This document shows positions 8,741-62,479 of a stretch of DNA of 64,000 nt, piece by piece (position 1 is the first letter of the stretch; each line of letters starts with the position of its first letter). A program made the position numbers and the translations under genes. This DNA is from Streptomyces sp. NBC_01775 (lineage in GTDB: Bacteria > Actinomycetota > Actinomycetes > Streptomycetales > Streptomycetaceae). The stretch is from contig NZ_CP109104.1 of NCBI RefSeq assembly GCF_035917675.1, positions 744,001-808,000 of the forward strand, written 5' to 3'. Below the pieces are notes generated by a model, which saw nothing but the letters and a program-made list of their open reading frames with translations, was not told the origin of the DNA and searched no databases.

Positions 8741-8886
8741 AACCGTGCGCTGGGCACGATGCGCGCCATCGCCATGCACGTGGGTGTCCGCGCGCCGTCA
8801 GGTTATCGAGACACGCCTCCTCCAAGCCACCGCCCCAGCCCCGGACCGTGCGTGAGACACACCTGAATCGGCGCTTACGAGAGCGC

Positions 8887-9621: not shown

Positions 9622-9637
9622 GCCGCCCTCCTTCAAG

Positions 9638-9659
9638 TTGTGGACTGTTGCGTCCACAA
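9638..9659. promoter_or_regulatory. Inverted repeat, probable TetR operator
   Basis: TTGTGGAC and GTCCACAA form perfect 8-bp arms separated by 6 bases (TGTTGC). It lies 17-38 bases upstream of the SDR start at 9621, where a repressor would block transcription. The TetR product of 9995-10591 is the obvious candidate binder. The remaining 335 bases up to 9994 show no gene. Confidence 0.6.
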
Positions 9660-9994
9660 CCTTCCCCGATATGGACCGCACAGTCAAGATTGCTTCGGCA
9701 TCGGGGCTTCCCGGCGCGGCCCCGTGGACGGGCTGCGCAGGCTGCGGGCAGTTGTCCCGCACCCGCGACCTCTGGTCGGACAACTGCGGGACCACACCAC
9801 CGGCAGCGCCGACCGCCGCGGCGGTATCGGCCTGCCGGGTCGCGGTACGAGTCGCCCGACGACTGGCAGCGCGCAGGAGCCCGGCCTGCGGAGCGCGGCC
9901 CTCCGCAGGAGCCGCAGCGCACAGCTTCAGGGCGCGCCCAGGGTCCGGAGCCGGTTGCGGGCCGTGGCGGTACAGGTCGGCCGGCGCGTTGCCG

Positions 9995-10591
9995 CTACTG
10001 CGCCGGAGTGGGCAGCAACCGTGCCAGGGCGGACCGGGCCATCGCGGTGAGCGCTCCGATGTCCATGCCGGTGCGCCCGAGAGCGATGAGGCCGAGTTGC
10101 GCGACGAGGGCCGCGCGGGCGGTCTCAGAAGGGTCGATGCCGGGGTCGAGGTCACCTTCGCTCTGGGCGCGCTCCAGCGCCGCGGTGAGGACGGTGGCGA
10201 TCGCGTCGTAACTGCGGCGAGCCTCAGCTGCGACGTCCGGAGTGCTGGCGGCAAGCTCGGCGTTGCTGTTGGCCAGCAGGCAGCCCCGACGCGCAACCGC
10301 CCCGGTCGGATCGCCGGTCAGGCCGAGTACGAACTCGCGCACCACGTCGATCCCCCGCGCCGCGGAAACCAGGCGCTCGCGCAGCATCAGCAGGTTCGCG
10401 TCGTCGTAGTCGCGCAGCACCCGCAGGAACAGGCTGCGCTTATCCCCGAACGCCCCGTAGAGGCTGCCTTTGCCCAGCCCGCTCACGCGCAGCAGGTCGT
10501 CCATCGATGTCGCCGCGTAGCCCTTGTCCCAGAACTCGTCACGGATAGCGAGAAGCACACGATTTTCATCGAACTCACGAGGTCGAGGCAT
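9995..10591 (-). CDS. TetR/AcrR family transcriptional regulator
   Basis: 198 aa from ATG at 10591. The N-terminal helix-turn-helix reads VLLAIRDEFWDKGYAATSMD followed by DLLRVSGLGKGSLYGAFGDK, a classic TetR DNA-binding domain; the C-terminal helical domain (residues ~60-190) would bind an inducer. The frame continues upstream into a transposase stub, which is not part of this protein. It probably controls the SDR gene at 8887-9621. Ligand unknown. Confidence 0.88.
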   Translation of the reverse strand: MPRPREFDENRVLLAIRDEFWDKGYAATSMDDLLRVSGLGKGSLYGAFGDKRSLFLRVLRDYDDANLLMLRERLVSAARGIDVVREFVLGLTGDPTGAVARRGCLLANSNAELAASTPDVAAEARRSYDAIATVLTAALERAQSEGDLDPGIDPSETARAALVAQLGLIALGRTGMDIGALTAMARSALARLLPTPAQ

Positions 10592-10594
10592 GCC

Positions 10595-10933
10595 CGCACA
10601 ATACAAGTTCTGGACCGCGTGGAACACAATGGACTCGGGGCCGCCATGTGCCCGGCTCAGCTCGGGAAAGTCCAGCGCGTTCGCGCCGCGAAGCCTGGCG
10701 AGGAGGGCCTCGTGCAGCCGGGGCCATACCCCGGCCTCGGTCCACTCGGCCAGGCGGCGCCAGCAGGTCATGCCCGAGCCGAAGCCGAGTCCCTGCGGCA
10801 GGTGTTCCCAGGCGATCCCGGTGTGCAGCACGAACAGGATGCCCTGGAACACCAGCCGGTCCGGATGCCGCTTGCCTTCCGGATGCCGGGTCCGCTCGAC
10901 CGTGGGCAACAGCGGCTCGGCCACCTCCCACAA
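10595..10933 (-). mobile_element. IS5-family transposase, N-terminal stub
   Basis: The minus frame starting at a TTG (10933) reads LWEVAEPLLP ... HPDRLVFQGILFVLHTGIAW and EHLPQGLGFGSGMTCWRRLA, the N-terminal DUF4096-like domain of IS5 transposases. The DDE region is absent, and the frame runs straight into the TetR gene, creating a misleading 312-aa ORF. Upstream residues (VDE) appear in another frame, so the stub is also frameshifted. Confidence 0.7.
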
Positions 10934-10937
10934 GGCT

Positions 10938-11293
10938 CATCGACATCCCACGGCTTCGGCCGAGCCACCCCGCACCCCGGATCAACGGCCCCGGAGTGAT
11001 CCAACCACTCCCGAGATCATTCTGTTGGGAGTTCTCAGGGGTGGGACAGATTCGCTCACTTGGATTCCCCACCCGCACCGTGCTGACCTGGGACGGAACG
11101 TCGCATCGCCGGGTTCGCCCGACAGCCGGCCGAACTTGGGACCGGACGAGCCGTCCAGGGCGGGCGTTGCCCGTCGCCCGCGACGCCGAAGACGCCCATT
11201 GACGAGCGGAGTTGCCCTGAACCCTGTACTGGCGGGCGAATCCCGCCTCGTACTCCAGCCGGAGATCATGTGACGTGGTCTCCGGTTGGAGTG
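10938..11293. other. No gene seen
   Basis: About 355 bases between the IS5 stub and the next hypothetical. Short ORFs on both strands show no codon bias, ribosome site or recognisable motif. Confidence 0.5.
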
Positions 11294-11782
11294 CTACGTG
11301 CTGTGGCGTTCGGTGAGTGGGCCGACCTCAAGATCTTCGCGCATGAACTTGCGCATCTTGGCAGCCGCTTTGCCGCGTGCCTCCCAGCGCGCGTGATCCT
11401 CTGGGCTGCTGACAGCAGTGCCGTCGATGTAGCCGTCGCAGATGCGTCGCAGGCAGTGGAAGACGCTGTTGGAGGCCTTGACGACAGGTTGGGGCGCGAT
11501 GAGCCACATCCGTTCGGATGCGATGGCGATGTCCGATTTCCGAAAGGCTTCGCGCAGCGCAAGCGCCCGCTCGTCGTCGGAAGGATGCTCTCGCTCGGCC
11601 AAGGACCGCAGGGTCTCACCGAGGACCTTCACGGCGGTGGTGTACTGCGTGTAGATGTCGAGCCGCAGCCGAAGAGCTTCTTTGGCATCCTCGCGCTTCC
11701 ACCGGTTCCGATCCGCGATGAGAGTAGCGACGATGCCGATCGCAGCCCCGGCCAGGGTGGAAAGCAGTGGCAACCAATCCAT
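11294..11782 (-). CDS. Hypothetical protein with one N-terminal membrane segment
   Basis: 162 aa. Residues ~4-23 (LPLLSTLAGAAIGIVATLIA) form one hydrophobic helix followed at once by DRNRWKRED, giving a membrane-anchored protein with a cytoplasmic body. The rest is helical and charged (DAKEALRLRLDIYTQYTTAV and similar), with coiled-coil potential and no catalytic motif. Similar small anchored proteins are widespread and unassigned in Streptomyces. It stands alone, between mobile-element debris and a region without genes. Confidence 0.72.
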   Translation of the reverse strand: MDWLPLLSTLAGAAIGIVATLIADRNRWKREDAKEALRLRLDIYTQYTTAVKVLGETLRSLAEREHPSDDERALALREAFRKSDIAIASERMWLIAPQPVVKASNSVFHCLRRICDGYIDGTAVSSPEDHARWEARGKAAAKMRKFMREDLEVGPLTERHST

Positions 11783-12270
11783 GCGGGCCAGCTTGCGTCA
11801 TACGTAGCGGCGGCACCAGATGGGCTTCGGGGCCGGACCTGTGCCGCCGGGCTGTGGTACTCGTCGACCCGGGCAATCGACTGGGGAACGATGAGCACAA
11901 CCGGCCATTTTCAAGGCTCTGGCCGCGCTTCCGTGAAGGATTGACTCGATGAGGTACAGCCCGGCGATGCATCTGCCCCAGCAGTCATGGAAGCGCGGCC
12001 GCAACGATCTCCGGCGAGCGGATCCGGTTTCGGGTTCCGACGAGGGTGGATCAGGGCCCGGCCGGTCGCACGGAGACAGTCGGCCAGCGCTTCGGGCCGG
12101 TACTGCAGCTTCTTCAGCTTCCTGACCGCCACCCGGGCCCTGTGATCCGGAATGTATTGAAAGGGACGCTTCGGTGGCCAGCTCGCTCTCGCCGAGACGT
12201 CGTGGGACGCGACTGTGAGACCGACCTGACCGGAGTCGGTCGCTTCCGACGAGTGCTCGGAAGGTCTCTC
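11783..12270. other. No confident gene; possible coding remnant on the minus strand
   Basis: A minus-strand stretch around 12060-12160 reads FQYIPDHRARVAVRKLKKLQ and then YRPEALADCLRATG, which looks like the end of a real protein but has no start, and the frame is lost on both sides. The family was not recognised. The rest of this stretch shows nothing. Confidence 0.3.
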
Positions 12271-12906
12271 TCACGCGTCCGGACCGGTGTCGACGACGTC
12301 ATCGCCGAAGGCGGCAGTAAGCGCCTTGGCGATCAAGTTGGGCAGTTCGGTCTGTCCGTCGTCCTCGGCCCAGCGCACCAGTGCCGTGTGCATTGCGGCC
12401 AGGCAGGCGCCGACCGCCGCTTGGGCGTGGAACGCCGTGTCTGGATCGGTGGTATCGGCCCCGAGGGCGTCGACGATTGCCTGTTGAAGGGCGTAGTGGT
12501 TGTCCAGGTGCTTGGCCCGCAGGGCCGGCGTCGAGATCATGAGCCGGAGGCGGGCGAGCAAGAACTGCTCGTTCGCTGTCAGGTCGTCTCCGTGGCCGCC
12601 CCTGGTCAACGTCGCGGCCGCGTCGATGAGCGCGCTGCCGATGCGACGGACCAGGGGCTGCGTGGCGGACGACGCGGCGATCTGCTCAGCGACGAGCCGG
12701 CCGTGCTGGTCGACGAGCACGAGGTCTTCCTTTGTGGGGAAGTGCCGGTACACGGTCATGGGCGACACGCCTGCGGCTTCGGCGACGTCGGTCACGGTCG
12801 TGGCGTCGTATCCGCTATCGGTGAACAGCCGTACCGCGTGTGCCTGGATCGTGCGCTGCGTCTCGGCTCGCCGTTGGACTCGCAGTGTTGAGTGCTGGTC
12901 GGGCAT
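12271..12906 (-). CDS. TetR/AcrR family transcriptional regulator, divergent from an SDR
   Basis: 211 aa from ATG at 12906. The helix-turn-helix reads VTDVAEAAGVSPMTVYRHFP. The C-terminal domain has the helical ligand-binding pattern. It faces the SDR gene at 12974 across 67 bases containing a perfect 10-5-10 inverted repeat, which could control both genes. The longer upstream frame (475 aa) is antisense to the SDR gene and is rejected. Confidence 0.9.
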   Translation of the reverse strand: MPDQHSTLRVQRRAETQRTIQAHAVRLFTDSGYDATTVTDVAEAAGVSPMTVYRHFPTKEDLVLVDQHGRLVAEQIAASSATQPLVRRIGSALIDAAATLTRGGHGDDLTANEQFLLARLRLMISTPALRAKHLDNHYALQQAIVDALGADTTDPDTAFHAQAAVGACLAAMHTALVRWAEDDGQTELPNLIAKALTAAFGDDVVDTGPDA

Positions 12907-48737: not shown

Positions 48738-50015
48738 TCAGCGCAGCGGGTCGAGGTGCCGCAGGAGCGGTGGCACTTCGCCGTTGCCGGTCATGGCGTC
48801 GGCGAGGAGCCTGCCGGTGAGCGGCCCGAGCACCATGCCCCACATCCCGTGTCCTCCGGCTATCTGCACCCGGGGTGAGCGGCTTGGACCGACCAGTGGC
48901 AGCCCGTCCGCGGTGCAGGGGCGCGATCCGACCCACTCCTCGTGGCGGTCGTTCCAGTCGATGCCGGAGAACATCGGCCGTGCGGATTCGATGATGGTGC
49001 GAATACGCCGGGGATCCAACGGCGCGTCGGGCGCGCGGAACTCCATGCTGCCGGTGACCCGGAAGCGGTCGCCCAGCGGATTGCAGGCGATCCGCTGGCC
49101 CGACAGGTAGATCGGGTGCGTGGGCATCACCCGCGGTCGTACCGTGAAGCTGTATCCACGTCCCGCCTGCACCCGCATGCGTACGCCGAAGGGTTGTGCC
49201 AGGTCGTTGAGCCAGGCGCCACCGGCGAGTACGACGGCGTCGGCACGTACCGTGTCCGTCGCCTTCGAGGTGGCGGAGGGGACCAACTCGACGCCGGTTT
49301 CACCCAGATCGTGGACCCGGGCCACGGAGAAATCCTCGACGATCTCGCCACCCCGGTCGCGGATGTCTTCCGCGAGAGTGCGCATGAATTCGGGCGGGTT
49401 GATGAAGCGTTGCCCGTACACCCGCAGTCCGGTGCGGACTTCGGCACTGAGTACGGGCTCGAGTTCCCGCAGCTCCCCACCGGTGACGGTCTCGTACCGG
49501 GCCTCGTCGCCGCCGCTCGCGCTCATGTGCGCGAATTCCTCCAGTATGTGCTCCCGGTCCTGACGGTTCCGGCAGGCGATGACGAGCGGGTCGGCGCTCT
49601 TCACCGGCGCGCTCACGCCGCCCTCGGCGAGCTGCTCGTACGCCGCGAGACAGGCGCGGTTGAGTTCGTTGAACACCGTCATCGTGCGCTGCCACTGCCG
49701 TGCCGTGCAGTTGCGTGCGAACGACAGGAGAAACGACCAGAGTTGCCGGTCGATCGCCGGCGGTATGGACACCGGCGAGGAGCGGTCGAGGAACGACCTG
49801 AAGCCGTAGCGCAACACGGAAGGTTCCGGAAGCGGCACGGTGAACGCGGGATTCAGCATGCCCGCATTACCCCAGGAACTGCCCGCGGCAACTCCCGTAC
49901 GGTCCAGCACGGTCACGCGCACACCGCGTTCCTGGAGGAACCACGCGGTGGAGAGTCCGGCCATGCCGGCGCCGACGACGGCAACATGCTCGGGGGCGGT
50001 ACGGGTTGTGTTCAC
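48738..50015 (-). CDS. FAD-dependent D-amino-acid dehydrogenase (DadA-like)
   Basis: 425 aa from GTG at 50015 (GAGGTGA close upstream). N-terminal FAD-binding GxGxxG: VAVVGAGMAGLSTAWFLQER. Later SSWGNAGMLNPAFTVPLPEP, GGELRELEPVL and the C-terminal SRPCTADGLPLVGPSRSPRV and GHGMWGMVLGPLTGRLLADA are typical of the DadA/glycine-oxidase family. It would oxidise a D-amino acid or an N-alkyl amino acid. Last gene of a three-gene operon with the MHS transporter and an M24-type hydrolase; LysR regulator divergent. Confidence 0.9.
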   Translation of the reverse strand: MNTTRTAPEHVAVVGAGMAGLSTAWFLQERGVRVTVLDRTGVAAGSSWGNAGMLNPAFTVPLPEPSVLRYGFRSFLDRSSPVSIPPAIDRQLWSFLLSFARNCTARQWQRTMTVFNELNRACLAAYEQLAEGGVSAPVKSADPLVIACRNRQDREHILEEFAHMSASGGDEARYETVTGGELRELEPVLSAEVRTGLRVYGQRFINPPEFMRTLAEDIRDRGGEIVEDFSVARVHDLGETGVELVPSATSKATDTVRADAVVLAGGAWLNDLAQPFGVRMRVQAGRGYSFTVRPRVMPTHPIYLSGQRIACNPLGDRFRVTGSMEFRAPDAPLDPRRIRTIIESARPMFSGIDWNDRHEEWVGSRPCTADGLPLVGPSRSPRVQIAGGHGMWGMVLGPLTGRLLADAMTGNGEVPPLLRHLDPLR

Positions 50016-50063
50016 GATCACCTCAGAATGCGCTGGAGAGGGAATACGGTCTGCGGGCACCTG

Positions 50064-51368
50064 TCAGTCGAGAGGTTTTCCGGCGGTCTCCGGCATGAAC
50101 GCCACAGGAATCAGCGTCACCAACGCCACCAACATCAGGTAGAACGCGGGTATGTTCAGGTTTCCGGTCTTCTCGACCACGAAGGTCATCAGGAGAGGAG
50201 CCGTACCGCCGAAAATGGCGAAGGATACGTTGTAGCCGATGGCCACGCCCGTGCCGCGCACCCGGGCGGGGAACAGCGCGGGCAAGGTGGCGGTGGTGGT
50301 CCCCAGAATCGGGATGTGGCAGAGCGTGAGAATGAGTATTCCGGCGAGCACGGGGGGCCAACTGGCCTGCTGAATCAGCTGGAAGGCCGGATAGGCCAGC
50401 ACGGCGTACGCGAGGGCCGCGCCCATCAGCATGGTCTTGCGTCCGACGCGGTCGGAGAGCATGCCCGCGAAGGGAATGGCCACGGTGAGCAGTGCTCCGG
50501 CGATGAACACCAGGAACTGCGTGGTCGCCGAGGCCATGCCCAGCTCTTCGGAGAGGTAACTGGGCAGATAGGTGAGCAGCACATAGGTGCCGATGCTGGA
50601 GCAGATGACGATGCCCCCGCAGATGAGCACCCGCAGTCGATGCTCTGTGAGTGCCTCCCGGACGGGGGCGCCCGGTTCGGCGTCCTGCTCGACGAGTGCG
50701 TGGAAGCTCGGCGTATCCGTCAGGCGCATCCGGAGGTAGAGGCCGATGGTGCCGAGCGGCAGGGCGATCAGGAAGGGGATCCGCCAACCCCAGGATTCCA
50801 TTGCCGCGTCGGACAGCAGATAAGTGAGCGCGGTGGTGAGTCCCGAGGCCAGCAGAAAGCCGGCGAGTGCCCCGCACTCCAGCCAGCTCGCCCAGAATCC
50901 GCGGCGCCGGTCGGGGGCGTACTCGACGACGAAGGTCGAGGCTCCGCCGTATTCGCCGCCCACCGCGAAGCCCTGCACCATCCGGGCCAGGAGCAGCGCG
51001 AGGGGAGCGAACACGCCTGCTGTGCCGTAGCCGGGCAGCAGGCCGATGACGCTGGTGGCTCCGGCCATGGTGAGGATCGTCAGCGAAAGTGTCTTCTTAC
51101 GGCCGATCTTGTCGTTCAGCGGCCCCAGTACAAAGGCGCCCAACGGCCGGACGGCGAAGGCCAGCGCGAAGGTGGCGAAGGATGCGAGCAGTGAGAGACT
51201 GGATTCCGACTGCGGGAAGAACACCTTCGCCAGCACCACGGCGAGATAGCCGTACGTGGCGTAGTCGTACCATTCGGTGGCATTGCCGATCATCGCGGCT
51301 GTCACCGCACGGCGCTGCATCGCTCTGTCGGTCTGTGGGCGAGGGCCTTTTTCCCGCAGTTCGCTCAT
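50064..51368 (-). CDS. MFS transporter, metabolite:H+ symporter (MHS) family
   Basis: 434 aa, ATG at 51368. Twelve helices expected. The MHS signature is visible: NATEWYDYATYGYLAVVLAK near the N-terminus, RPLGAFVLGPLNDKIGRKKT, MVQGFAVGGEYGGASTFVVE and a later GMLSDRVGRKTMLM. The family carries betaines, proline, shikimate and dicarboxylates. In this operon it probably brings in the substrate of the two enzymes, such as an N-methylated or cyclic amino acid. Confidence 0.93.
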   Translation of the reverse strand: MSELREKGPRPQTDRAMQRRAVTAAMIGNATEWYDYATYGYLAVVLAKVFFPQSESSLSLLASFATFALAFAVRPLGAFVLGPLNDKIGRKKTLSLTILTMAGATSVIGLLPGYGTAGVFAPLALLLARMVQGFAVGGEYGGASTFVVEYAPDRRRGFWASWLECGALAGFLLASGLTTALTYLLSDAAMESWGWRIPFLIALPLGTIGLYLRMRLTDTPSFHALVEQDAEPGAPVREALTEHRLRVLICGGIVICSSIGTYVLLTYLPSYLSEELGMASATTQFLVFIAGALLTVAIPFAGMLSDRVGRKTMLMGAALAYAVLAYPAFQLIQQASWPPVLAGILILTLCHIPILGTTTATLPALFPARVRGTGVAIGYNVSFAIFGGTAPLLMTFVVEKTGNLNIPAFYLMLVALVTLIPVAFMPETAGKPLD

Positions 51369-51440
51369 CCTGGGCTTCCTGTCCGACTGTTCCGGGTGTT
51401 CCGGCGCGTACGCGCCGGAACGGTTCAGGTCATTGCGGAT

Positions 51441-52691
51441 TCACGCTTCGATGATGTCCGCCGGCCCGTGGGTGAGTACTCGGGTGCCGTGCTCCTCCAC
51501 CACGAAGGTCTGGCTCAGTCCGACCATCGACTTGCCGAAGGAACGGAACGAGCCCGGAATGTGGAACACCATCCCGCTCACCAGAGGTTCGTGATTGTCG
51601 GGAGTGAGATAGAACGGGGCACCGTCCATCCAGTGCGGCTTGTGGGCCAGGCCGACGGGATATCCGAAGAGCTGGTGAAACATGACGTCGTCCGGGAGCC
51701 GGCCGAGCGCCTTCCCCGCCTGGACGGCGACCTGCGAGGCGGTGACGCCGTCCGCCGCGGTCTCCAGCACGGCGGCGACGGCGGTACGCGCGAGCTCGGC
51801 CAGCCGCTGGTCCGCGGCGCCCAGCGCGCCGCCTCGCACCACGGTGCGCATCACCGGCGCGTGGTAGCGCGACCGGGTGCCGGCGAACTCCATGAAGGTG
51901 GGCCCACTGCCCAACTCCCGTCCCACCCAGCTCGAATGCGGAATGCCGCTGCGCTGCCCGGTGACGACGAGCGGCCCCCAGGCGGAGGGCGAGTCGGCCT
52001 CGGCGTACAGCGCCGCGGCGATCGCGGCGGCCACGGAAGAGTCGGTGGCGCCGGGGACGTGGGTGGCGGCCACTCCCGCCTCCACCCCCCGCTGCGTCAC
52101 CGCGGCTGCCTCCTCCACCCGGCGCAGCTCGGCGGAGGAGAGCACCAGACGGGCCCGCTCGACGAGGTAGTCGGGGTGCACGACCGTCAGACCGTGCTCG
52201 CGCAGGATGTCCAGCGCGCGCGGGGGTGTGGAGGCATGCCCGATCTCGACGCCCACGCGGGCGCCCTCGGGGAGCACCGATGCCGCGTGCTGAAGGAAGA
52301 GTTCGAGCCCGACCAGCGCGTCCGCGTAACCGCAGAAGTGGAGATTCCCGGCCACCGAACTGGCCAGCGCCCTGCCGACTTCCAGGTCGGGAAGGTAGAG
52401 ATGGGTGTCGGAGGCGGTGACCAGCAGCGGTTGGGGAGCCGTCTCCGCTGTGTGATAGCCGCACAGGTACTCCACGCTGGAGGGGCGGAAGACCAGCATC
52501 GCGTCCAGCGGCAGCCGGTCCATGCGACCGCGCAGCTCGCTCAGCCGCGCACCGTACTCGGCCTCGTCGAAGGCGGGGCCCTCGGCGGCCCGTACCGCCG
52601 CCGCGGACTCCTCGGTGAGCCAACCCGGCGACGGAGCGTTGCCGAGCCGGGTGATGTTCGGGCCGTATCCGCTGTGCTCTGAGGTACCCAT
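51441..52691 (-). CDS. M24 family hydrolase without the metal site (creatinase / ectoine-hydrolase-like)
   Basis: 416 aa from ATG at 52691 (GAAGAGGG upstream). Pita-bread fold layout. The usual aminopeptidase-P Asp ligands are replaced: FMEFAGTRSRYHAPVMRTVV and GYPVGLAHKPHWMDG resemble creatinase and DoeA (ectoine hydrolase), which need no metal. A likely catalytic His lies in RSGIPHSSWVGREL. It probably cleaves a C-N bond of a cyclic or amidated compound. First gene of an operon with MHS transport and DadA-like oxidation. Substrate is inference. Confidence 0.87.
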   Translation of the reverse strand: MGTSEHSGYGPNITRLGNAPSPGWLTEESAAAVRAAEGPAFDEAEYGARLSELRGRMDRLPLDAMLVFRPSSVEYLCGYHTAETAPQPLLVTASDTHLYLPDLEVGRALASSVAGNLHFCGYADALVGLELFLQHAASVLPEGARVGVEIGHASTPPRALDILREHGLTVVHPDYLVERARLVLSSAELRRVEEAAAVTQRGVEAGVAATHVPGATDSSVAAAIAAALYAEADSPSAWGPLVVTGQRSGIPHSSWVGRELGSGPTFMEFAGTRSRYHAPVMRTVVRGGALGAADQRLAELARTAVAAVLETAADGVTASQVAVQAGKALGRLPDDVMFHQLFGYPVGLAHKPHWMDGAPFYLTPDNHEPLVSGMVFHIPGSFRSFGKSMVGLSQTFVVEEHGTRVLTHGPADIIEA

Positions 52692-53069
52692 GTGACCCTC
52701 TTCCTGATGAAGGATTTCCCGTGGCTCGTTCGGTGGCCGCACGCCCTGCCTGCCGCGGCATGCGTGCCGCGGCGGGCTGCGGGACATTCGGGCGGCCTGG
52801 TGCTCGTGCTCTCCCCGGCGTGCGGCTACGGGCCGGGCCGCGTTCGGCCGTTTCCCGGCCGTGCCGGCTGTGCTGACGTATGCGAGGGACCGGCGTGATC
52901 GCTGAGACAGGTGGATGACGCTGAGACAGGTGGATGACTGAGATCGGGCTGCCCGGGCTGCGCGAGCGAGGTCAGCCGACCTTCGCTTCTCGCTGTGCAC
53001 GCAGTCTGGTTCACCGAATTCCTTCACGTCTATTGGGAAATCCTTCAGTCATCACTTTAGATTTGGTTA
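52692..53069. promoter_or_regulatory. Divergent promoter region, LysR-controlled
   Basis: 378 bases between the M24-type gene and lysR, with no ORF of interest. It contains the tandem 19-bp repeat at 52901-52938 and an AT-rich stretch (TTTAGATTTGGTTA) just before the lysR ATG, which lacks a ribosome site. Confidence 0.5.
52901..52938. repeat. 19-bp tandem repeat
   Basis: GCTGAGACAGGTGGATGAC occurs twice back-to-back (52901-52919, 52920-52938), followed by TGAGATC. It lies in the divergent promoter and might be a regulator site. Confidence 0.8.
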
Positions 53070-54089
53070 ATGGAACTCTCGCTGAACCGTCTCCGGATGC
53101 TCCGGGAGCTGGCCCGCTGCGGCACCCTCACCGAAGCGGCGGCGGCGCTCCACTACACGCCCTCCGCCGTCTCCCAGCAGTTGGCGGCGCTGGAGCGTGA
53201 GGTGTGTGTGCCGCTGCTGGAGCATGTCGGGCGCCGCGTGCGCCTGACGGAGACCGGGCGTGTGCTCGCGCAACACGCCGAGGAGATCCTGGCCGCCGAG
53301 GAGCGCGCCCGGATAGCGCTCGAGCAGGCCCGGGAAACCCTCACGGCCGACCTCACCGTGGGCGTACTGGCGACCCTCGCGGGCACCCTCGTGCCACCCA
53401 CGCTGGCCACCCTCGCCGAACGGCACCCCGGCGTACGGGTCAAGACCAGGGAGGTCGTACCGGAGGAGACGCAGTCGGCCGTACGGGACGGCGACCTCGA
53501 CCTGGCGTTCGTGCTGGACTATCCAGCCGCACCCGGCTCCGCCGTCCGGGACAGCGCCCTGGAGTGCACGCTCATCGGCGTGGAACAGCTCCACCTCGTC
53601 GCCCCGCACGGGAGCCTGGGCGCACCGACGGATCCCAGGGGGTCCGCCGAGCGGCCTCCCCCGGCTGCCGCTTTGCCGCGGCATACCGGCGAGGACCGTA
53701 CGGTTTCGGGCGCCCCGGTGGAGCTCGCGGACCTGGCCGAGTGCTCCTGGGTCGCGTCCGGGACCGACACCGAGTTCGGCCGCGCCCTGTTGTCGGTGTG
53801 CCGGGCGGCCGGCTTCACGCCGCACATCGCGCATCAGATCGACGAGCAGTCGACAGCGATGGCGATGGTGGCGATGGGTCTCGGCGTCACTCTGGTCGCC
53901 GAACTCGCGTTGCCGCTGCGGCCCGTGGGCGTCGACGTCTTCCCCTTCCGCGAGCCGATCAGGCGCCGGATCACCGTCATCCGGCGGACGTCGACCAGGG
54001 ACCGCCCGTCGGAGCGGGCCTTCGTCCGTGCCGCTCTGGACACGGCCACCTCGCTCCGGTTGCTCAAGGATCCGGCCGACGAAGGCTGA
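53070..54089 (+). CDS. LysR family transcriptional regulator
   Basis: 339 aa, ATG 53070. The N-terminal winged helix reads RMLRELARCGTLTEAAAALH, YTPSAVSQQLAALEREVCVP and LLEHVGRRVRLTETG, typical LysR. The C-terminal periplasmic-binding-like domain (~90-310) has a Pro-rich insertion at ~195-225 (GSAERPPPAAALPRHTGEDR) that is longer than usual. It faces the M24/MHS/DadA operon and probably activates it in response to its substrate. The start is nearly leaderless. Confidence 0.93.
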   Translation: MELSLNRLRMLRELARCGTLTEAAAALHYTPSAVSQQLAALEREVCVPLLEHVGRRVRLTETGRVLAQHAEEILAAEERARIALEQARETLTADLTVGVLATLAGTLVPPTLATLAERHPGVRVKTREVVPEETQSAVRDGDLDLAFVLDYPAAPGSAVRDSALECTLIGVEQLHLVAPHGSLGAPTDPRGSAERPPPAAALPRHTGEDRTVSGAPVELADLAECSWVASGTDTEFGRALLSVCRAAGFTPHIAHQIDEQSTAMAMVAMGLGVTLVAELALPLRPVGVDVFPFREPIRRRITVIRRTSTRDRPSERAFVRAALDTATSLRLLKDPADEG

Positions 54090-55065: not shown

Positions 55066-55368
55066 TCAGCGTTCCAGCAGGACCCTGACGTCCCAGGCGT
55101 TCAGCCTCAGTTCTTCCCCCGCCTGGTGATCCGTGCCGTCGGGCACGTCCCGGACGACGGCGGGGCGCCGGACCGGTACCTCGGCCCAGGACCAGTTGTG
55201 CACGAAACGCAGCCTGCGGCCGTCGGGAGCGGTGGCACCCGTGCTGGTGACGCTCTCCTGCCCGAACCTCCAGCCGTCGTCCTGGCCGGGGACGGTCCAC
55301 CGGAGCAGTGAGGCGGCGAACCGGGTCCGGTACGGTGCCGTCTTCGCCGTAGGCGACGCCCCGAACAC
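55066..55368 (-). pseudogene. Beta-galactosidase (GH42-like) C-terminal fragment
   Basis: The minus frame reads LLRWTVPGQDDGWRFGQESV, TSTGATAPDGRRLRFVHNWS and HQAGEELRLNAWDVRVLLER, the C-terminal beta-sandwich of GH42-type beta-galactosidases (FVHNWS / LRLxxWDVRVL). The barrel and trimerisation domains are absent. It lies directly after the operon at 55402-61473 on the same strand, so the remnant may once have belonged with that locus. Confidence 0.55.
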
Positions 55369-55401: not shown

Positions 55402-56265
55402 TCAGCGCTTGATCTCCTTGATCTTCAGCATGCGCGTGATGACCTTGTCGAGCTCGGCGTCGTCGAAGACCTTCTTCCAGTCGTCGCGGACGATCGATTC
55501 GCGGCCGTAGTCCATGGCGATGAGGCAGGCGTCGGAGAACGGGTTGGAGCCCTTGAGCGTGTTCGCGAGCGCGACCTGCGTGTGGCCGAGCAGCATGGCG
55601 CGGGCGGCGTTCTCGGGGACGCCGACGGTGTGCACGGTCTCGTGCAGCGCCTCGGTGAGCAGAGCGCCGACCATGCAGGCGATGGTCTCGACAAGGGTCG
55701 GCTCCAGGACGGCGAGCTGCTTGACGGTCACCCAGTGGACGTCGACGACCGGGGCGTACATGACGCGGATGACGGACTCGGCGAGCGCCTGCTTGTCGGC
55801 GTCGCCGCCCTCGTACGCGGCGACGACCTCCTGCGGCGCGGCGATACCGCCGAAGGTGTCCTGCCACTCCTCCTTGGTGGTGCGCTCCAGGAAGACGGAC
55901 GGGTGGCAGGGGTGCGCGCAGGTGTAGTGCACGTCGTCGCGGGCGAACAGCAGGCCCGCGTAGGCGGCGGCCGGGTCGAGGGTGAGGACGACGGCGCCCG
56001 GCTTCATCAGCGGCACCAGCTGCTCCGAGACGGTGCCAAGGACGATGTCCGGCACCGCGAGGATCACGACGTCGGCCTCCTTGGCGGCGGCGTCGGAGTC
56101 GGTCAGCTCGCGGCCGAGCGAGCGGATCAGCTCCTGCCCCTTCTCGGATGCCTCGCTGAAGAGCACCCGGAAGTCGCTCCCGACCAGGTTGTCGGAGACA
56201 CGCTGGCCCATCTTGCCGGCGGCCCCGATGACGGCGACGGTCTGGTTCGCGGTGGCCATGGTCAT
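55402..56265 (-). CDS. ApnO-like NAD(P) dehydrogenase with phosphogluconate-dehydrogenase C-terminal domain
   Basis: 287 aa from ATG at 56265, whose ATGA overlap with the gene before it decides the start. N-terminal Rossmann domain with VAVIGAAGKMGQRVSDNLVG, then a helical domain with HPCHPSVFLERTTKEEWQDT and VDVHWVTVKQLAVLEPTLVE. This is the family that includes D-apionate oxidoisomerase (ApnO), which oxidises and rearranges D-apionate to 3-oxo-isoapionate. Last gene of a six-gene operon whose other members fit the later steps. Specific substrate remains inference; close relatives also act on other C4-C5 sugar acids. Confidence 0.82.
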   Translation of the reverse strand: MTMATANQTVAVIGAAGKMGQRVSDNLVGSDFRVLFSEASEKGQELIRSLGRELTDSDAAAKEADVVILAVPDIVLGTVSEQLVPLMKPGAVVLTLDPAAAYAGLLFARDDVHYTCAHPCHPSVFLERTTKEEWQDTFGGIAAPQEVVAAYEGGDADKQALAESVIRVMYAPVVDVHWVTVKQLAVLEPTLVETIACMVGALLTEALHETVHTVGVPENAARAMLLGHTQVALANTLKGSNPFSDACLIAMDYGRESIVRDDWKKVFDDAELDKVITRMLKIKEIKR

Positions 56266-57077
56266 TCGCTCCTCAGAAGGGTGTTGCTGGAAAGGGTGCT
56301 GATGCTGTGCCGGGTCCACTGGTCTTCGAGGCGGGCCGTCGTGTCGAAGCCGTCGTCCTGCCACGGGAGCCAGTGCTCCACGATCTGGTTGATGCCGCGC
56401 TCGTGCGGCCGGACCGCGGCGGTCATGGCGGCGTAGTCCAGCAGGCCGGTACCCAGCGGGCAGCCCGCGTAGGTGAAGCCCACCCAGCCGTCGCGCCGGG
56501 TGAAGGCGAAGTCCTTGACGTGGACGTTGACCACGTACGGGGCGGTGGCCTCGACGACGTCGACGGGCCGCTCCAGGCGGGCGACGCTGTTCCCGGGGTC
56601 GAGGACGACGCCCAGCCGCCGGCTGCCCACGTTCTCCACCACGGTGACGAGGTCGTCGGTGGAGACCTGCTCGTAGGTCTCCAGGCCGAGGGTGACACCT
56701 GCCTCGGTGCAGGCGGGCAGTGCCTGCCGCAGCAGGGTCGTGGCCTCTTCGACGGTCGGCCGGTGGTCGGCCGTGTTCATCATGGAGCGGACGAGCGTGA
56801 CGTCCAACTGCCCGGCGATATCCAGGTACTTGGCCAGATGTCCGGGGCGTACGCCCCGGGTTCCGAGCTCCAGGGTCAGCCCCAGGTCGCGTGCGGCGTC
56901 GCGGACGTCGGCCAGGCGGGCGGCGTCGTAGGACTCGATGGGCGGGTAGTCGCAGATCTGGAAGACCCGGCCGCCGAGCTGATTGGTGTCCACGAGCATG
57001 TCCAGGAGGGACAGCGGCTTCGGAGCGCGTTCGGAGATCCGCCAGAAGTACGCGTACGTGCTGATGCCGTATGCCAT
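56262..57077 (-). CDS. Sugar phosphate isomerase/epimerase-type TIM barrel, OiaC candidate
   Basis: 271 aa from ATG at 57077. Xylose-isomerase-like barrel (AP endonuclease 2 family) with metal-ligand segments TLGLETYEQVSTDDLVTVVE, LGVVLDPGNSVARLERPVDV and VVNVHVKDFAFTRRDGWVGF. Members include epimerases and the 3-oxo-isoapionate decarboxylase OiaC, which would turn the ApnO product into L-erythrulose. Overlaps the downstream dehydrogenase (ATGA) and the upstream TIM-like gene (TGATG), so synthesis is coupled. Family secure; decarboxylase role is inference from context. Confidence 0.82.
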   Translation of the reverse strand: MAYGISTYAYFWRISERAPKPLSLLDMLVDTNQLGGRVFQICDYPPIESYDAARLADVRDAARDLGLTLELGTRGVRPGHLAKYLDIAGQLDVTLVRSMMNTADHRPTVEEATTLLRQALPACTEAGVTLGLETYEQVSTDDLVTVVENVGSRRLGVVLDPGNSVARLERPVDVVEATAPYVVNVHVKDFAFTRRDGWVGFTYAGCPLGTGLLDYAAMTAAVRPHERGINQIVEHWLPWQDDGFDTTARLEDQWTRHSISTLSSNTLLRSE

Positions 57078-57838
57078 CACGCCACCGCCGCACGGGGGTT
57101 GATCTCGTCGAGGATGTTCCCGACGGCCGACGAGTTGTGCGCGAAGCGCCCCAGGAACAGACCGCCGACCGAACCACCGAGGCGGGTGAGCAGGCCGGGC
57201 CCGGCGCTGCCGCCGTAGATGACGGTCGAGCCGGCGTACTGGGGACCGGAGTTCAGCCACTCCGCCAACGCCTCGCACACCGTGGTGATGTGCTCGGGCG
57301 AGGCCGGCTCGGGCGCGCCGATGGCCCACTGCGGCTCGTACGCGAGGACGACCTTGCCGCTGAGCCCGTGCAGCAGGCGCGCCGCCTCGGCGACGGTGCG
57401 GCGCGCGGCCTCCTCCGGCTCGACCGGGTCCAGTTCACCGACGCACAGGACGGGGGTGAGCTTGTTGCGCAGGGCGGCGGCCGTCTTCCCGGCGACGACC
57501 GTGTCGCCCTCGCCGTAGAGGCGGCGCCGCTCGGCGTGGCCGACCTCGGCGTAGCGGCAGCCGATCTCCCTCAGGTACGGGCCGGAGACCTCGCCGGTGT
57601 AGGCGCCGGTGTCCTCCGTGGCGATGTCCTGCGCGCCGATGTCGACGCCGCTGCGCGCGAGGACCCCGGCCACCGGCACGATCGCCGGGAAGGCGGGGAG
57701 CACGAACAGGCGGGCCGCGCCGCTGGTGACGGCGGGGTGCTCGTCGGCCAGTTGGACGATCTTCCGCGCCCAGTTGAGGGTCTCGTGGTGGCCGAAGTAC
57801 ATCTTCAGGCTCACCCCGAGCAGGACGGGGGCGTTCAT
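57077..57838 (-). CDS. Triose-phosphate-isomerase-like, probably L-erythrulose-1-phosphate isomerase (LerI/EryH type)
   Basis: 253 aa from ATG at 57838, stop overlapping as TGATG with RpiB. It has the TIM catalytic set: Lys in SLKMY, VGHAERR (His electrophile), catalytic Glu in AYEPQWAIG and YGGSAGP. The N-terminal motif is SLKMY instead of the glycolytic NWKMN, a difference seen in tetrulose-phosphate isomerases. Together with RpiB and a DhaK-type kinase it fits L-erythrulose 1-phosphate to D-erythrulose 4-phosphate. A second metabolic TIM for C3 sugars is less likely. Confidence 0.88.
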   Translation of the reverse strand: MNAPVLLGVSLKMYFGHHETLNWARKIVQLADEHPAVTSGAARLFVLPAFPAIVPVAGVLARSGVDIGAQDIATEDTGAYTGEVSGPYLREIGCRYAEVGHAERRRLYGEGDTVVAGKTAAALRNKLTPVLCVGELDPVEPEEAARRTVAEAARLLHGLSGKVVLAYEPQWAIGAPEPASPEHITTVCEALAEWLNSGPQYAGSTVIYGGSAGPGLLTRLGGSVGGLFLGRFAHNSSAVGNILDEINPRAAVA

Positions 57839-58311
57839 CAGGCGGCCTCGGACTCGTTCTCGTAGTCGCTCATCAACTGGACCTTCTCGGCGGACGGCGA
57901 GGCGTCGTCGAAGCGGTAGGTCAGCCACTCGGCGGCCAGCCGGCGGGCCAGTTCCAGGCCGACGACGCGCTGCCCGAAGGTGAGGACCTGCGCGTCGTTG
58001 GAGAGGATCGCGCGCTCCACGGAGAACGAGTCGTGAGCGGTGACCGCGCGGATCCCCTTGACCTTGTTGGCGGCGATCGCCACGCCCAGGCCGGTGCCGC
58101 ACACGAGCAGCGCCCGGTCGGCGTCGCCGCGCGCCACCATCTCCGCGGCGGCTATGGCGATCTCGGGGTAGGGGGTGTGCCCGTCGGCGTCCACGCCCAC
58201 GTCGGTCACGGAGGCGACAAGGTCGCTGGCCTGGAGGTCCTTCTTCAGTACCTCCTTGTACTGGTGGCCGGCGTCGTCGCTGCCGACGACCATCCGCAGC
58301 TGCTCACTCAT
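57838..58311 (-). CDS. RpiB/LacAB-family isomerase, probably D-erythrulose-4-phosphate isomerase (DerI/EryI type)
   Basis: 157 aa, ATG at 58311 after AAGGAC. RpiB pattern: [20 protein letters not shown], the catalytic Cys in [20 protein letters not shown] and the substrate-site [20 protein letters not shown]. RpiB-family enzymes isomerise ribose 5-phosphate or tetrulose 4-phosphates. Coupled to the TIM-like gene and 55 bases after the kinase gene. D-Erythrose 4-phosphate would enter the pentose phosphate pathway. Confidence 0.9.
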
Positions 58312-58366
58312 GTGACATGTCCTTACGGGGAGTCAGGGGGTCAGAGGGTTGGAGAGGGTCGGGGTG

Positions 58367-60100
58367 TTACCGGCGGTGGGCGAGCGCGCTGTGGACGGCG
58401 CGGACTATCAGGGCGAGGGAGTGTGCGCCCGCGTCGGGGGTGCCCAGGGACTTCTCGGCGTGCGGACGGGCCCGTCCCATGCGGGGCAGCAGGCGCGCGG
58501 TGTCGCTGGCGGCCGTCTCGGCGGCGTCGGCGGCGACGTCCCAGGCGGCGGGCAGCGCGGCGCCCTCGGAGATCTGCCGGCCGAGCGTGTCGGCGAACGG
58601 TACGAGGACGTCGACCATCGTCTTGTCGCCGACCTCGGCGCCGCCGGCCTCGCGCACACCGTCGGACGCCCGCACGACTCCGCGGGCGACGGTCGCCGGG
58701 GTTGGCCGGTCGGTGTCGCCGAGCGCGTCGGCCATCGAGCGGAGGATGACGCCCCACAGAGCGCCGGAGGTACCGCCGGCCTTGTCCGCCCAGGCGTCGG
58801 CGGCCTCGGTGAGCAGGCTGCGGGCTCCGGCCCCCGACTCCTGGGCGCGCAGCGCCGCCTCGTGGGCGCCGCCGGCGCCGCGCTGCATGCCGATGCCGTG
58901 GTCACCGTCGCCGGCGACGGCGTCGATGTGTCCGAGTTCGTCGGTGTGCGCGTCGACGGTCTCCTTGATCAGCCGCAGGGCGTCGAGTGCGATGCCGGCG
59001 GCCCGGCGGGAGTCGTCACTCGCGCGGTACGGCTCGGGGCCGCTGTCGGTCTCCTGCGACGTCTCCTCCGCGTCGGCGGCGGCCACCTGCGGCACAGCGC
59101 CCTTCCGGTAGGCGGGTGTGTCGGCGGGCGCGGTCCACAACGCTTCGAGCGTGTCGTCGAGCCAGGTCACAGAGAGGGAGACGCCGGCCATGTCGAAGCT
59201 GGTCACGAGCTCGCCGACCTCGGGATCGACGGTCTGCACGCCCGCGTCGTCGAGCAGCTGGGCCACGCGCCGGTAGACGACGAAGAGTTCCTCGTACTTG
59301 ACGGAGCCGAGGCCGTTGAGGATCACGGCGGCGCGCTGTCCGCGCGACCCGGCCACGCCGTCGGGGAGTTCCTTCAGGAGGGTCGACACCAGGAGCTCGG
59401 CGGCCTCGTCGGCGGTGGGCACGGCCTGTTCGCCGATGCCGGGTTCGCCGTGGATGCCGAGACCGACGGCCATCCGCCCCTCCGGGACGGTGAACAGCGG
59501 GTGGTCTGCACCGGGCAGGGTGCAGCCGGAGAAGGCGATGCCGAAGGAGCGGGTGCGGGCGTTGGCGTGCTCGGCCACCCGCGCCACCTCGTCGAGCGGC
59601 AGGCCTTGCTCGGCGGCGGCGGCCGTGACCTTGAAGACGGGCAGGTCACCCGCGATGCCACGGCGCTTGTGAGCCTCCTCGGGCGCGGCGCTGGACAGGT
59701 CGTCGGCGACGGCGAGGGTACGGGCCGGGATGCCGTCGGCGGCCAGTCGCTCGGCGGCCTGACCGAAGTGCAGGACGTCGCCCGCGTAGTTGCCGTACAG
59801 GAGCATGACCCCGCCGCCGGACTGCGCGGCCTTGGCGACCGTGCGGATCTGTAGCGCGGAGGGGGAGGCGAAGACATTGCCCACGGCGGCACCGTGCGCG
59901 AGGCCCTGTCCGACCAGGCCGGAGAAGGCCGGGTAGTGGCCGGAGCCACCACCGATGACGACGGCCACCTGGCCGGGGACCTTCGCGGTGGCCCGGACCA
60001 CACCGCCGGGGACGGGGCGCACCCAGCGGCGATGGGCGGCGGCGAACCCTTCGAGTGCTTCGTCGGCGAAGGCAGCGGGGTCGTTGTACAGGCGGGTCAT
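58367..60100 (-). CDS. DhaK-DhaL-type ATP-dependent kinase, probably L-erythrulose kinase
   Basis: 577 aa from ATG at 60100, overlapping the MFS stop (ATGA). Residues ~1-330 form DhaK (VIGGGSGHYPAFSGLVGQGL, GLGIHGEPGIGEQAVPTADE with the covalent His), then a linker (~335-375) and DhaL (~380-570, VAGDGDHGIGMQRG metal-binding Asp cluster, DKTMVDVLVPF). Single-chain DhaKL kinases use ATP and include L- and D-erythrulose kinases. It is the phosphorylation step of the operon. Confidence 0.9.
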   Translation of the reverse strand: MTRLYNDPAAFADEALEGFAAAHRRWVRPVPGGVVRATAKVPGQVAVVIGGGSGHYPAFSGLVGQGLAHGAAVGNVFASPSALQIRTVAKAAQSGGGVMLLYGNYAGDVLHFGQAAERLAADGIPARTLAVADDLSSAAPEEAHKRRGIAGDLPVFKVTAAAAEQGLPLDEVARVAEHANARTRSFGIAFSGCTLPGADHPLFTVPEGRMAVGLGIHGEPGIGEQAVPTADEAAELLVSTLLKELPDGVAGSRGQRAAVILNGLGSVKYEELFVVYRRVAQLLDDAGVQTVDPEVGELVTSFDMAGVSLSVTWLDDTLEALWTAPADTPAYRKGAVPQVAAADAEETSQETDSGPEPYRASDDSRRAAGIALDALRLIKETVDAHTDELGHIDAVAGDGDHGIGMQRGAGGAHEAALRAQESGAGARSLLTEAADAWADKAGGTSGALWGVILRSMADALGDTDRPTPATVARGVVRASDGVREAGGAEVGDKTMVDVLVPFADTLGRQISEGAALPAAWDVAADAAETAASDTARLLPRMGRARPHAEKSLGTPDAGAHSLALIVRAVHSALAHRR

Positions 60101-61473
60101 CGCTGGGTCTCCGCGGGAGCTGAGGGGGCGGACGGGGACTGGGGGGCACGGGAGGCGAGGAAGATCATCAGGGCGGCGGACAGGAGCATGAAGGCGCCGA
60201 CGAGGTAGAGCGGCACGGAGTAGTCGCCGGTCCAGTCCTTGAGCCAGCCGGTGATGTAGCTGGAGGCGAATCCGGCGATGTTGCCCGCCGTGTTGATCAG
60301 GGCGATGCCGACCGCGGCAGCCGCGCCGGTCAGGAAGCGGGAGGGGACGGCCCAGAACACCGGCAGGGCGGCGAAGATCGAACAGGCGGTGACCGTGATG
60401 ACGGCGACGGTGGCCCCCGGGGAGCCCATGTAAAGGGCGAGGGGGATGGAGACGCCGCCGACGATCGCGGGCCCGGCGACGTGCCGGGTGCGGGTGCCGT
60501 TGCGGGTGGCGTGCCGGCTCCAGAAGTAGAGGACGACGGCGGCCGGCAGGTAGGGAATGGCGGTGATCCACGCCTTGTCCATCACGCTGAAGGTGGTGTC
60601 GAACTCCTCCTGGAAGCCGTTGATGATGGTCGGCAGGAAGAACGCGAGCGCGTACAGGCCGTAGACGAACCCGAAGTAGACGAGGGCGAGGATCCACACG
60701 CGGGCGTTGGTGAAGGCGGCCTTCAGGTCGCCCTTGGCATGCTTGCCCTCGTGACCCGTCTTCTCGGCGTTCTCGGCGGCGAGCTCCGTGGTGAGCCAGT
60801 CCCGCTCCTCCGGCGTGAGCCACTTGGCGTCGGCCGGGCGGTCGATCAGGTAGAACCAGGCGACGACGCCCAGCAGGATCGCCGGGACCGAGACGAACAG
60901 GAACATCACGCGCCAGCCCTCGAGCCCGAAGAGGCCGTGGTGGCCGATGAGCCAGCCCGCGAGCGGGGCGCCGAGGACCGTGGTCAGCGGCTGGGCCAGG
61001 TAGAAGAGACCCAGGATCTTGGTGCGGTGGCGGCTGGGTACCCACTGGCTCAGGTAGAGGATCGCGCCCGGGAAGAAGCCGGCCTCGGCGACGCCCAGCA
61101 AGAAGCGCAGCGTGTAGAGCTGCTCGGTGCCGTTCACCCAGGTGAACAGCAGTGAGACGACGCCCCAGGTGACCATGATCCGGGCCAGCCAGCGGCGGGC
61201 TCCGAAGCGGTGCAGGGCCATGTTGCTGGGGATCTCCAGCACGATGTAGCCGAGGAAGAAGATCCCGGAGGCGAAGCCGAACTGGGCGGCCGTGAGCGCC
61301 AGGTCCTCCCCCATCCCGTTGGGTTCGGCGAACGACACCGCGGTGCGGTCCAGGTAGTTCACGAAGAACATCAGGGCCACGAACGGGACGAGACGGGTCG
61401 AGATCTTCCTGATCGCCGACGCTTCGACGGCTGACCTCGGTTTCGCCACGGGCGACGCGGGACTGACAGGCAT
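60097..61473 (-). CDS. MFS transporter, anion:cation symporter (ACS) family
   Basis: 458 aa from ATG at 61473 after GAGGAG (6 bases). Twelve helices expected; motifs NYLDRTAVSFAEPNGMGEDL, ILEIPSNMALHRFGARRWLA and LLGVAEAGFFPGAILYLSQW are typical of ACS permeases, which import sugar acids such as D-galactonate, tartrate or phthalate. This favours an acid substrate for the operon rather than a neutral tetritol. Central loop (~200-260) is charged. First gene of the operon; promoter and FadR operator lie upstream. Confidence 0.92.
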   Translation of the reverse strand: MPVSPASPVAKPRSAVEASAIRKISTRLVPFVALMFFVNYLDRTAVSFAEPNGMGEDLALTAAQFGFASGIFFLGYIVLEIPSNMALHRFGARRWLARIMVTWGVVSLLFTWVNGTEQLYTLRFLLGVAEAGFFPGAILYLSQWVPSRHRTKILGLFYLAQPLTTVLGAPLAGWLIGHHGLFGLEGWRVMFLFVSVPAILLGVVAWFYLIDRPADAKWLTPEERDWLTTELAAENAEKTGHEGKHAKGDLKAAFTNARVWILALVYFGFVYGLYALAFFLPTIINGFQEEFDTTFSVMDKAWITAIPYLPAAVVLYFWSRHATRNGTRTRHVAGPAIVGGVSIPLALYMGSPGATVAVITVTACSIFAALPVFWAVPSRFLTGAAAAVGIALINTAGNIAGFASSYITGWLKDWTGDYSVPLYLVGAFMLLSAALMIFLASRAPQSPSAPSAPAETQR

Positions 61474-61599
61474 GGCCACTCCTCGGCTCTCCGGACAGCT
61501 CTGTCCGGACTTGGGGCACTCTCGGCACACGAAGGGGGTCAGCGGGGCTGGCCACGCCGGACGGGGCCGATCTGCGATTCACGCTAAGCCCGGTCCAGC

Positions 61600-61616
61600 A
61601 AATTGGTCACCAATTT
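61600..61616. promoter_or_regulatory. FadR-type operator in the divergent promoter
   Basis: AAATTGGT C ACCAATTT is a perfect 17-bp palindrome with the TGGTNACCA-type core of FadR-subfamily GntR regulators. It sits 127 bases upstream of the MFS start and 114 upstream of the regulator. A weaker TGGTCTACTGGT lies over the regulator start (61720-61731). Confidence 0.78.
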
Positions 61617-61729
61617 ACCAATGTGGCGAGGATCGCACTTCCTCCTCGCGGTGAACCCTTGACAAAACGGGCGCGATAAGACGCCATACACGCTCCCTGA
61701 GCAGGAGCGACGCGCCATCTGGTCTACTG

Positions 61730-62479
61730 GTGACCGTGACGAGTCAGCCCTCCAGCACCGACGAGCCCCAGCCCGACCTCGCCCAACTCCTGCGCCCCGT
61801 CGTACGGGAGTCCTCCGTGAGCGAGGTCGCCAAGCGCCTCCTCGACCACCTCTCCGCGGGCAACATCAAGCCCGGGGCACGGCTGCCCGCCGAGCGCCAG
61901 CTCGCCGAGGCGCTGGGGGTGGCGCGCTCCAGCGTCCGCGGCGCGCTGTCCGCGCTCGACGTGCTCGGGATCATCGAGATCCGGCCGGGTTCGGGCTCGT
62001 ACGTGCGCGAGGGCACCTCGGAGTTCCTCCCGCGGGCCATCAACTGGGGCCTGATGCTGGGTCAGCGCCGCACGCAGGATCTGGTCGAGGTGCGGACCTA
62101 CATGGAGAGCGTCTCGGCCCGGCTCGCCGCGGAGCGGGCGACGGAGGAGGACGTGGCCCGGCTGGAGGAGCATCTGCGGCACATGCGGGAGGCGGGCAGT
62201 GACGTCAAGGCGTTCATCGACGCCGACATCGCCTTCCACCTGGAGTGCGCGGCCATCGCGCGCAACACGGTGCTCAGCGACATCCTGCACAGCATCCGCG
62301 CGCTGCTCCAGGTGTGGATGGAACGCGTCAGCGACGTCGAGGGAACCGTCAGCGGCACCCTGTGCGAGCACGACACGATCCTCAAGGCGATCCGCGACCG
62401 GGATCCGGAAAGCGCGGACCGGGCGATGGCCGAGCACATGCGGATGGCGAGCGCACGACTGCGCGAATCGGTGGGGTGA
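61730..62479 (+). CDS. GntR family regulator (FadR subfamily), divergent from the apionate-like operon
   Basis: 249 aa from GTG 61730 (a GTG at 61736 is close). Winged helix (NIKPGARLPAERQLAEALGV, ARSSVRGALSALDVLGIIEI) and C-terminal FCD domain with metal-ligand positions (D in IDADIAFHLECAAIARNTVL, H in CEHDTILKAI and AMAEHMRMA). FadR-type proteins commonly repress sugar-acid catabolism genes and release DNA on binding the substrate. The palindrome at 61600 is the likely target. Start region is nearly leaderless. Confidence 0.93.
   Translation: MTVTSQPSSTDEPQPDLAQLLRPVVRESSVSEVAKRLLDHLSAGNIKPGARLPAERQLAEALGVARSSVRGALSALDVLGIIEIRPGSGSYVREGTSEFLPRAINWGLMLGQRRTQDLVEVRTYMESVSARLAAERATEEDVARLEEHLRHMREAGSDVKAFIDADIAFHLECAAIARNTVLSDILHSIRALLQVWMERVSDVEGTVSGTLCEHDTILKAIRDRDPESADRAMAEHMRMASARLRESVG

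Follow-up and report, generated by a model that had tools for sequence, protein, structure and literature searches.

The window analysed here, a stretch of 64,000 bases from the genome of Streptomyces sp. NBC_01775 (9,336,717 bases in two contigs), carries at positions 55402-62479 a locus with an operon of six co-directional genes. This operon very probably degrades D-apionate to D-erythrose 4-phosphate through the enzymes ApnO, OiaC, LerK, LerI and DerI, under the control of a GntR/FCD regulator. From the protein families encoded, we infer the following substrates and products. The major facilitator superfamily (MFS) protein would import D-apionate, which ApnO would oxidise and rearrange to 3-oxo-isoapionate. 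This beta-keto acid would be decarboxylated to L-erythrulose by OiaC, a metal-dependent triosephosphate isomerase (TIM) barrel. LerK would then convert L-erythrulose to L-erythrulose 1-phosphate, LerI would turn the latter into D-erythrulose 4-phosphate, and DerI would produce D-erythrose 4-phosphate, which would enter the pentose phosphate pathway. The regulator would act at a palindrome located at 61600-61616 and repress the operon. The pathway itself is already known; the new detail is this predicted regulator palindrome.

The six genes, all on the minus strand, run from 61473 to 55402, as defined by their open reading frames and by Pfam and NCBIfam families. The first one encodes the MFS transporter, the predicted D-apionate importer (60097-61473; PF07690, best NCBIfam model TIGR00893). 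It overlaps by 4 bases the gene of a DhaK-DhaL fusion kinase, the predicted L-erythrulose kinase LerK (58367-60100; PF02733 (Dak1), PF02734 (Dak2) and NF011049). After a gap of 55 bases comes an RpiB homologue of the LacAB_rpiB family, the predicted D-erythrulose-4-phosphate isomerase DerI (57838-58311; PF02502, TIGR02133). Overlaps of 1 base link this gene to that of a TIM homologue, the predicted L-erythrulose-1-phosphate isomerase LerI (57077-57838; PF00121), and the latter to that of a xylose-isomerase-like barrel protein, the predicted 3-oxo-isoapionate decarboxylase OiaC (56262-57077; AP_endonuc_2, PF01261). The last gene encodes a dehydrogenase with a PF16896 (PGDH_C) domain, the predicted D-apionate oxidoisomerase ApnO (55402-56265, or from 56259). 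A preliminary description of the locus had proposed six genes of these families, all of which were recovered, and overlaps at four of the five junctions. The junctions are as it gave them, except that the barrel/dehydrogenase overlap of 4 bases requires the dehydrogenase ATG at 56265. By eye, an alternative in-frame ATG at 56259 lies 9 bases from a GAGGAG motif (56274-56269), as against 3 bases for the ATG at 56265. Given this better spacing, the true junction may be a gap of 2 bases. The same interval also holds a gene that the preliminary description had not listed, that of the divergent GntR/FCD regulator (61730-62479, plus strand; PF07729 FCD and PF00392 GntR).

Related loci support the grouping of these genes. 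A genome scan, for which the query alignment was headed by the Pantoea barrel, yielded 242 confirmed relatives, of which the best 80 loci were kept; this sample, picked by closeness to one barrel, speaks for the clade of that barrel only. Gene presence was assessed by tblastn with bit-score thresholds, some loci being cut by contig ends. In all 80 loci, the barrel and dehydrogenase genes are immediate neighbours on the same strand. Homologues of the MFS protein were found in 72 of them, of the TIM-like protein in 70, of the kinase in 68, of an RpiB of either kind in 68, of the regulator family in 36, of ApnL in 18 and of ApsD in 5. The hosts include Pantoea, Erwinia, Pectobacterium, Serratia, Kushneria, Salinicola, Halotalea, Arthrobacter, Prauserella and Streptomyces, and the gene set is kept in both Pseudomonadota and Actinomycetota. 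The pairwise distances of five proteins are correlated (r of 0.85-0.97, calculated from the window and 62 loci whose genes are nearly full length, and uncorrected for species relatedness), which shows joint inheritance only. All the proteins belong to large families, and it might be imagined that sugar-phosphate enzymes without a common pathway have been brought together by chance or for housekeeping. Already contradicted by the conserved synteny and by these correlated distances, such a cluster has a probability close to nil, and the conservation of gene order in other phyla rules it out.

Of 246 genomes searched within the genus, 16, host included, have a dehydrogenase match at E <=1e-60, and in all 16 of these loci, chosen by their dehydrogenase, the barrel and TIM-like genes are found beside the dehydrogenase gene. 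Across the family, 3 of 150 sampled genomes, host included, contain a strong match to the barrel, and 36 more have weak ones only (best E 3.6e-15). The distribution of the operon is therefore sporadic.

The enzyme roles put forward in the preliminary description are supported as far as sequence reaches, by the synteny within and beyond the genus, by the names of homologues and by the gene context on the Rhizobium etli plasmid p42f (see below). The ApnO candidate carries the C-terminal domain PF16896 with a score of 224 bits and is 43% identical to the ApnO candidate of R. etli; its PDB matches include 5t57 (E 1.9e-65) and 3c24 (E 9.6e-52). Among the 120 listed of its 4041 homologues, a Streptomyces protein with 90% identity (P0177) is named D-apionate oxidoisomerase by NCBI, most of the others carrying domain names only. 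Similarly, two close Streptomyces homologues of the barrel (P0043 and P0090, both 76% identical) bear the NCBI name 3-oxo-isoapionate decarboxylase among the 120 listed of 2517, and the JGI name 3-oxoisoapionate decarboxylase is given to four of the 120 listed relatives of the Pectobacterium carotovorum barrel. Such names were probably transferred by similarity and constitute support rather than proof. They agree with a relation of the dehydrogenase to ApnO and of the barrel to OiaC. A search for curated ApnO or OiaC models in NCBIfam gave no match to either protein.

Conservation of residues was counted in aligned columns, after leaving out rows with less than 80% coverage (1 TIM-like protein, 7 kinases and 1 RpiB). 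For all five enzymes, the roles that we assign to these residues are presumed from their families. In the barrel, E133, D160, H186 and E234, which we take to be metal ligands, are kept in 85 of 85 sequences. This count replaced stricter OiaC motif patterns, which matched 56-66 of 84. In the dehydrogenase, H118, H121, K18 and E188 are likewise kept in 85 of 85, and position 245 is Asp in 60 and Glu in 25. The invariant adjacency to the dehydrogenase gene, the predicted metal ligands and the names of homologues all point to OiaC for the barrel. Its structure model has a mean pLDDT of 92.5, and the best solved neighbours among the 50 listed are Art22 and sugar epimerases or isomerases (TM <=0.78, identity 12-19%). 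This search confirms the fold alone. With the single sequence as query, the best PDB match has an E value of 6.1e-07. The entry 5tnv, considered as a possible OiaC structure, was absent from the phmmer list up to E 10 and was reached by the profile at E 0.0014 only; it ranked 27th in the fold search, with 19% identity, and a relation of the barrel to it was rejected.

The substrate of the dehydrogenase and barrel might be another branched or linear sugar acid, also leading to a tetrulose handled by the kinase and isomerases as proposed. Such an alternative may draw on the lack of any apiosidase, ApnL or close ApsD found in the genome, so that nothing there ties the operon to D-apiose, and on a transporter specificity that models do not resolve. 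However, the genes of very close relatives of these two enzymes stay together as a single syntenic unit, and the public names of homologues point to D-apionate. In five halomonad loci (L075, L081, L086, L103 and L106), this unit is accompanied by an ApsD-like gene, 50-53% identical to that of R. etli, and by an ApnL-like match, which ties the barrel-dehydrogenase pair to D-apiose oxidation. Another sugar acid is therefore unlikely. The five belong to a set of seven halomonad loci (the other two being L079 and L102) that have an MFS-barrel-dehydrogenase arrangement without homologues of LerK, LerI or DerI in the stretch compared. In one Arthrobacter locus, the protein matched as ApnL reaches 155.6, where the ApnL cut-off is 750, and is ApnL-like only. 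Among plasmid records, the dehydrogenase query gave 251 matches and the barrel query 105, just 17 of which cover at least 80% of the barrel length. ApnO-like proteins therefore often occur without this barrel.

The D-apionate route would continue with the kinase and the two isomerases. The kinase combines DhaK and DhaL domains; it exceeds the cut-off of NF011049, the general model of the dihydroxyacetone kinase family, and fails the equivalog NCBIfam models, a pattern to be expected of a related enzyme that acts on another substrate. In 66 of 66 aligned sequences, it keeps H217, presumably the active-site His, as well as D398 and D400, presumably the DhaL aspartates, consistent with an assignment as LerK. 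The TIM-like protein reaches the cut-off of none of the nine TIM-type NCBIfam models listed. Its K12, H101 and E168, which we take to be the catalytic Lys, His and Glu, are kept in 74 of 74 aligned sequences, and in all 74 a Ser replaces the usual TIM Asn. The operon RpiB is of the Cys type, with C71 and H93 kept in 72 of 72. A second RpiB of the host genome, of the Glu type and 29% identical to it, is likely the housekeeping enzyme; the operon RpiB is therefore not the sole copy, which favours a role in the D-apionate route. Enterobacterial loci have a divergent RpiB, 52-61% identical to R. etli DerI, so that two lineages, one of actinobacterial type and one resembling R. etli DerI, seem to fill the same step.

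A kinase, a TIM-like protein and an RpiB form a set that serves tetrulose phosphates. The operon might accordingly be imagined to serve threitol, erythritol or erythrulose, with the dehydrogenase and barrel as accessory enzymes. This proposal was rejected on account of the absence of a polyol dehydrogenase from the six genes. It is also made very improbable by the PF16896 dehydrogenase and barrel, inseparable from the block in the 80 loci, by the resemblance of the MFS protein to a sugar-acid transporter, though under the cut-off, and by the presence elsewhere in the genome of a separate DhaKL-RpiB locus without a TIM-like gene.

At locus L135 (G000:C1:3994000-4013000), a second DhaK-DhaL protein, 54% identical to the operon kinase, accompanies an RpiB 67% identical to that of the operon. 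The locus also contains genes for an FGGY kinase, a 2-hydroxyacid dehydrogenase and a HAD hydrolase, with divergent DeoR regulator and MFS genes, and has no TIM-like match. It is perhaps another tetrulose route needing no LerI.

Several observations weigh against the assignment of the operon to D-apionate. In the stretches compared, no TIM-like gene was found in 10 of the 80 loci and no kinase gene in 12, and contig ends account for some of these cases, not all; the seven halomonad loci mentioned above are among them. The fold of the barrel is common to many epimerases and isomerases and cannot tell a decarboxylase from an isomerase. In addition, barrels with 28-30% identity occur in three alphaproteobacterial loci where no ApnO is annotated next to them. 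For the TIM-like protein, the PDB entries matched best are ordinary triosephosphate isomerases; entry 11ef, named L-erythrulose-1-phosphate isomerase, comes at rank 21 (E 1.8e-25). The operon RpiB reaches 140 bits on NF051858, the sole curated DerI model, which is rhizobial and has a cut-off of 240. It passes TIGR02133 (211.4 bits, cut-off 168.2), a model that is not discriminating, as three proteins of the host genome exceed its cut-off. The transporter scores 296.6 bits on TIGR00893, the D-galactonate transporter model, under the cut-off of 395, and its specificity is not resolved by this sugar-acid model. Finally, the upstream D-apiose genes were not found in the host genome.

As regards the latter, a search for the apiosidase domain PF13204 found none in the host genome, with 2 of 14 controls matched. 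No ApnL was found in a search that did match the R. etli, Arthrobacter and Kushneria controls, nor in three further searches without a matching control. For ApsD, only remote Gfo/Idh proteins were recovered (best 28%), with no close match. A full D-apiose utilisation set (apiosidase, ApsD and ApnL) was thus not found in this genome, and the locus, earlier called complete, can be so described from D-apionate onward and not upstream of it. The strain therefore probably imports D-apionate itself, released by others; otherwise it probably uses non-homologous enzymes. It may also be imagined, with little probability, that the ApnO-OiaC pair of this genome, parted from the ApsD, ApnL and apiosidase genes, has switched to another branched sugar acid found in soil and still leads to L-erythrulose. 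If so, the operon would reveal a new substrate by which the tetrulose phosphate route is entered.

The proposed control of the operon can be tested directly, as regards both the regulator and its site. In Streptomyces and Arthrobacter loci, a GntR/FCD regulator homologue is divergent from and ahead of the operon. Here, the 256 bases between the regulator and MFS genes hold the palindrome AAATTGGTGACCAATTT (61600-61616, minus strand), the sole place of the window within 3 mismatches of this sequence, as compared with a chance mean of 0.02. Its core ATTGGTNACCAAT has a single location in the whole genome, and AATTGGTGACCAATTT is found between the regulator and MFS genes in 6 of 6 Streptomyces loci among the 80 (L090, L098, L110, L112, L114 and L115). 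The regulator most likely acts at this predicted site, and the best reading is that of a local regulator with one target, for which we infer repression. In the Arthrobacter-type loci, where regulators are 47-51% identical to that of the window, the pattern TTGGT-N1..2-ACCAA was found in 0 of 21 and the looser TGGT-N2-ACCA in 1 of 21; the palindrome was therefore not retained for them.

Around the operon, a 100-residue stretch right after the dehydrogenase gene (55066-55368, minus strand) resembles by eye the C-terminus of a glycoside hydrolase and might be a gene remnant. It has no Pfam match, and no match in the loci searched was better than E 0.26; this candidate was rejected. Further away (48738-54089), genes for FAD-dependent amino-acid oxidase-like, MFS, creatinase/Xaa-Pro-peptidase-like and LysR regulator proteins, identified by eye, are perhaps another small catabolic cluster. 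An Rfam search of the window gave no match. In Salipiger profundus (pTPRO1, 8001-12613; L038), a 29% identical barrel is encoded next to a DhaK/DhaL gene and to transketolase genes that are split, perhaps as part of a related sugar route.

The ApnO-OiaC-LerK-LerI-DerI route, through D-apionate oxidoisomerase and 3-oxo-isoapionate decarboxylase, is reportedly the one published by Carter and colleagues in 2018. As in that route, five enzyme families and a transporter are gathered in one operon, and homologues bear the names of the pathway enzymes. Unlike it, the host genome yielded no ApsD or ApnL, and the operon RpiB is of actinobacterial type, under the cut-off of the curated rhizobial DerI model. 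A second system is the OiaK-OiaX branch of R. etli CFN42 p42f, which passes through 3-oxo-isoapionate 4-phosphate. It shares with the operon an ApnO homologue (43%), a TIM homologue and an RpiB, the latter passing the DerI model. In contrast, a four-carbon acid sugar kinase and the RuBisCO-like OiaX stand where the operon has the barrel and DhaKL, and R. etli carries an ApsD candidate and ApnL. Over their NCBIfam cut-offs are OiaX (783.9 for 700), ApnL (1049.7 for 750) and DerI (257.9 for 240); the kinase scores 473 on the OiaK model, under the cut-off of 700. With R. etli OiaX as query, no match was obtained in the 80 loci or among the operon genes, the rest of the host genome not being searched, and this branch was rejected for the operon on the basis of the related loci. 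Growth on D-apiose is described for a marine isolate that has a gene cluster named after ApnO, OiaK and OiaX (PMC11747546).

Pantoea sp. At-9b (pPAT9B04) and Erwinia sp. E602 (L032 and L033) have MFS, DhaKL, TIM-like, barrel and dehydrogenase genes in the same order as the operon, with barrels 55-56% and dehydrogenases 61-62% identical to those of the window. They differ by a divergent rpiB, nearer to R. etli DerI (59-60%), and by their regulator, a sugar-binding-domain protein encoded downstream. The Streptomyces operon would add a well-formed actinobacterial case to a published route that degrades a sugar acid of plant origin, leaving the understanding of the pathway unchanged. The comparison shows the predicted barrel-type (OiaC) route as a single conserved block in Enterobacterales, halomonads and actinobacteria, with two different RpiB lineages apparently at the same step.

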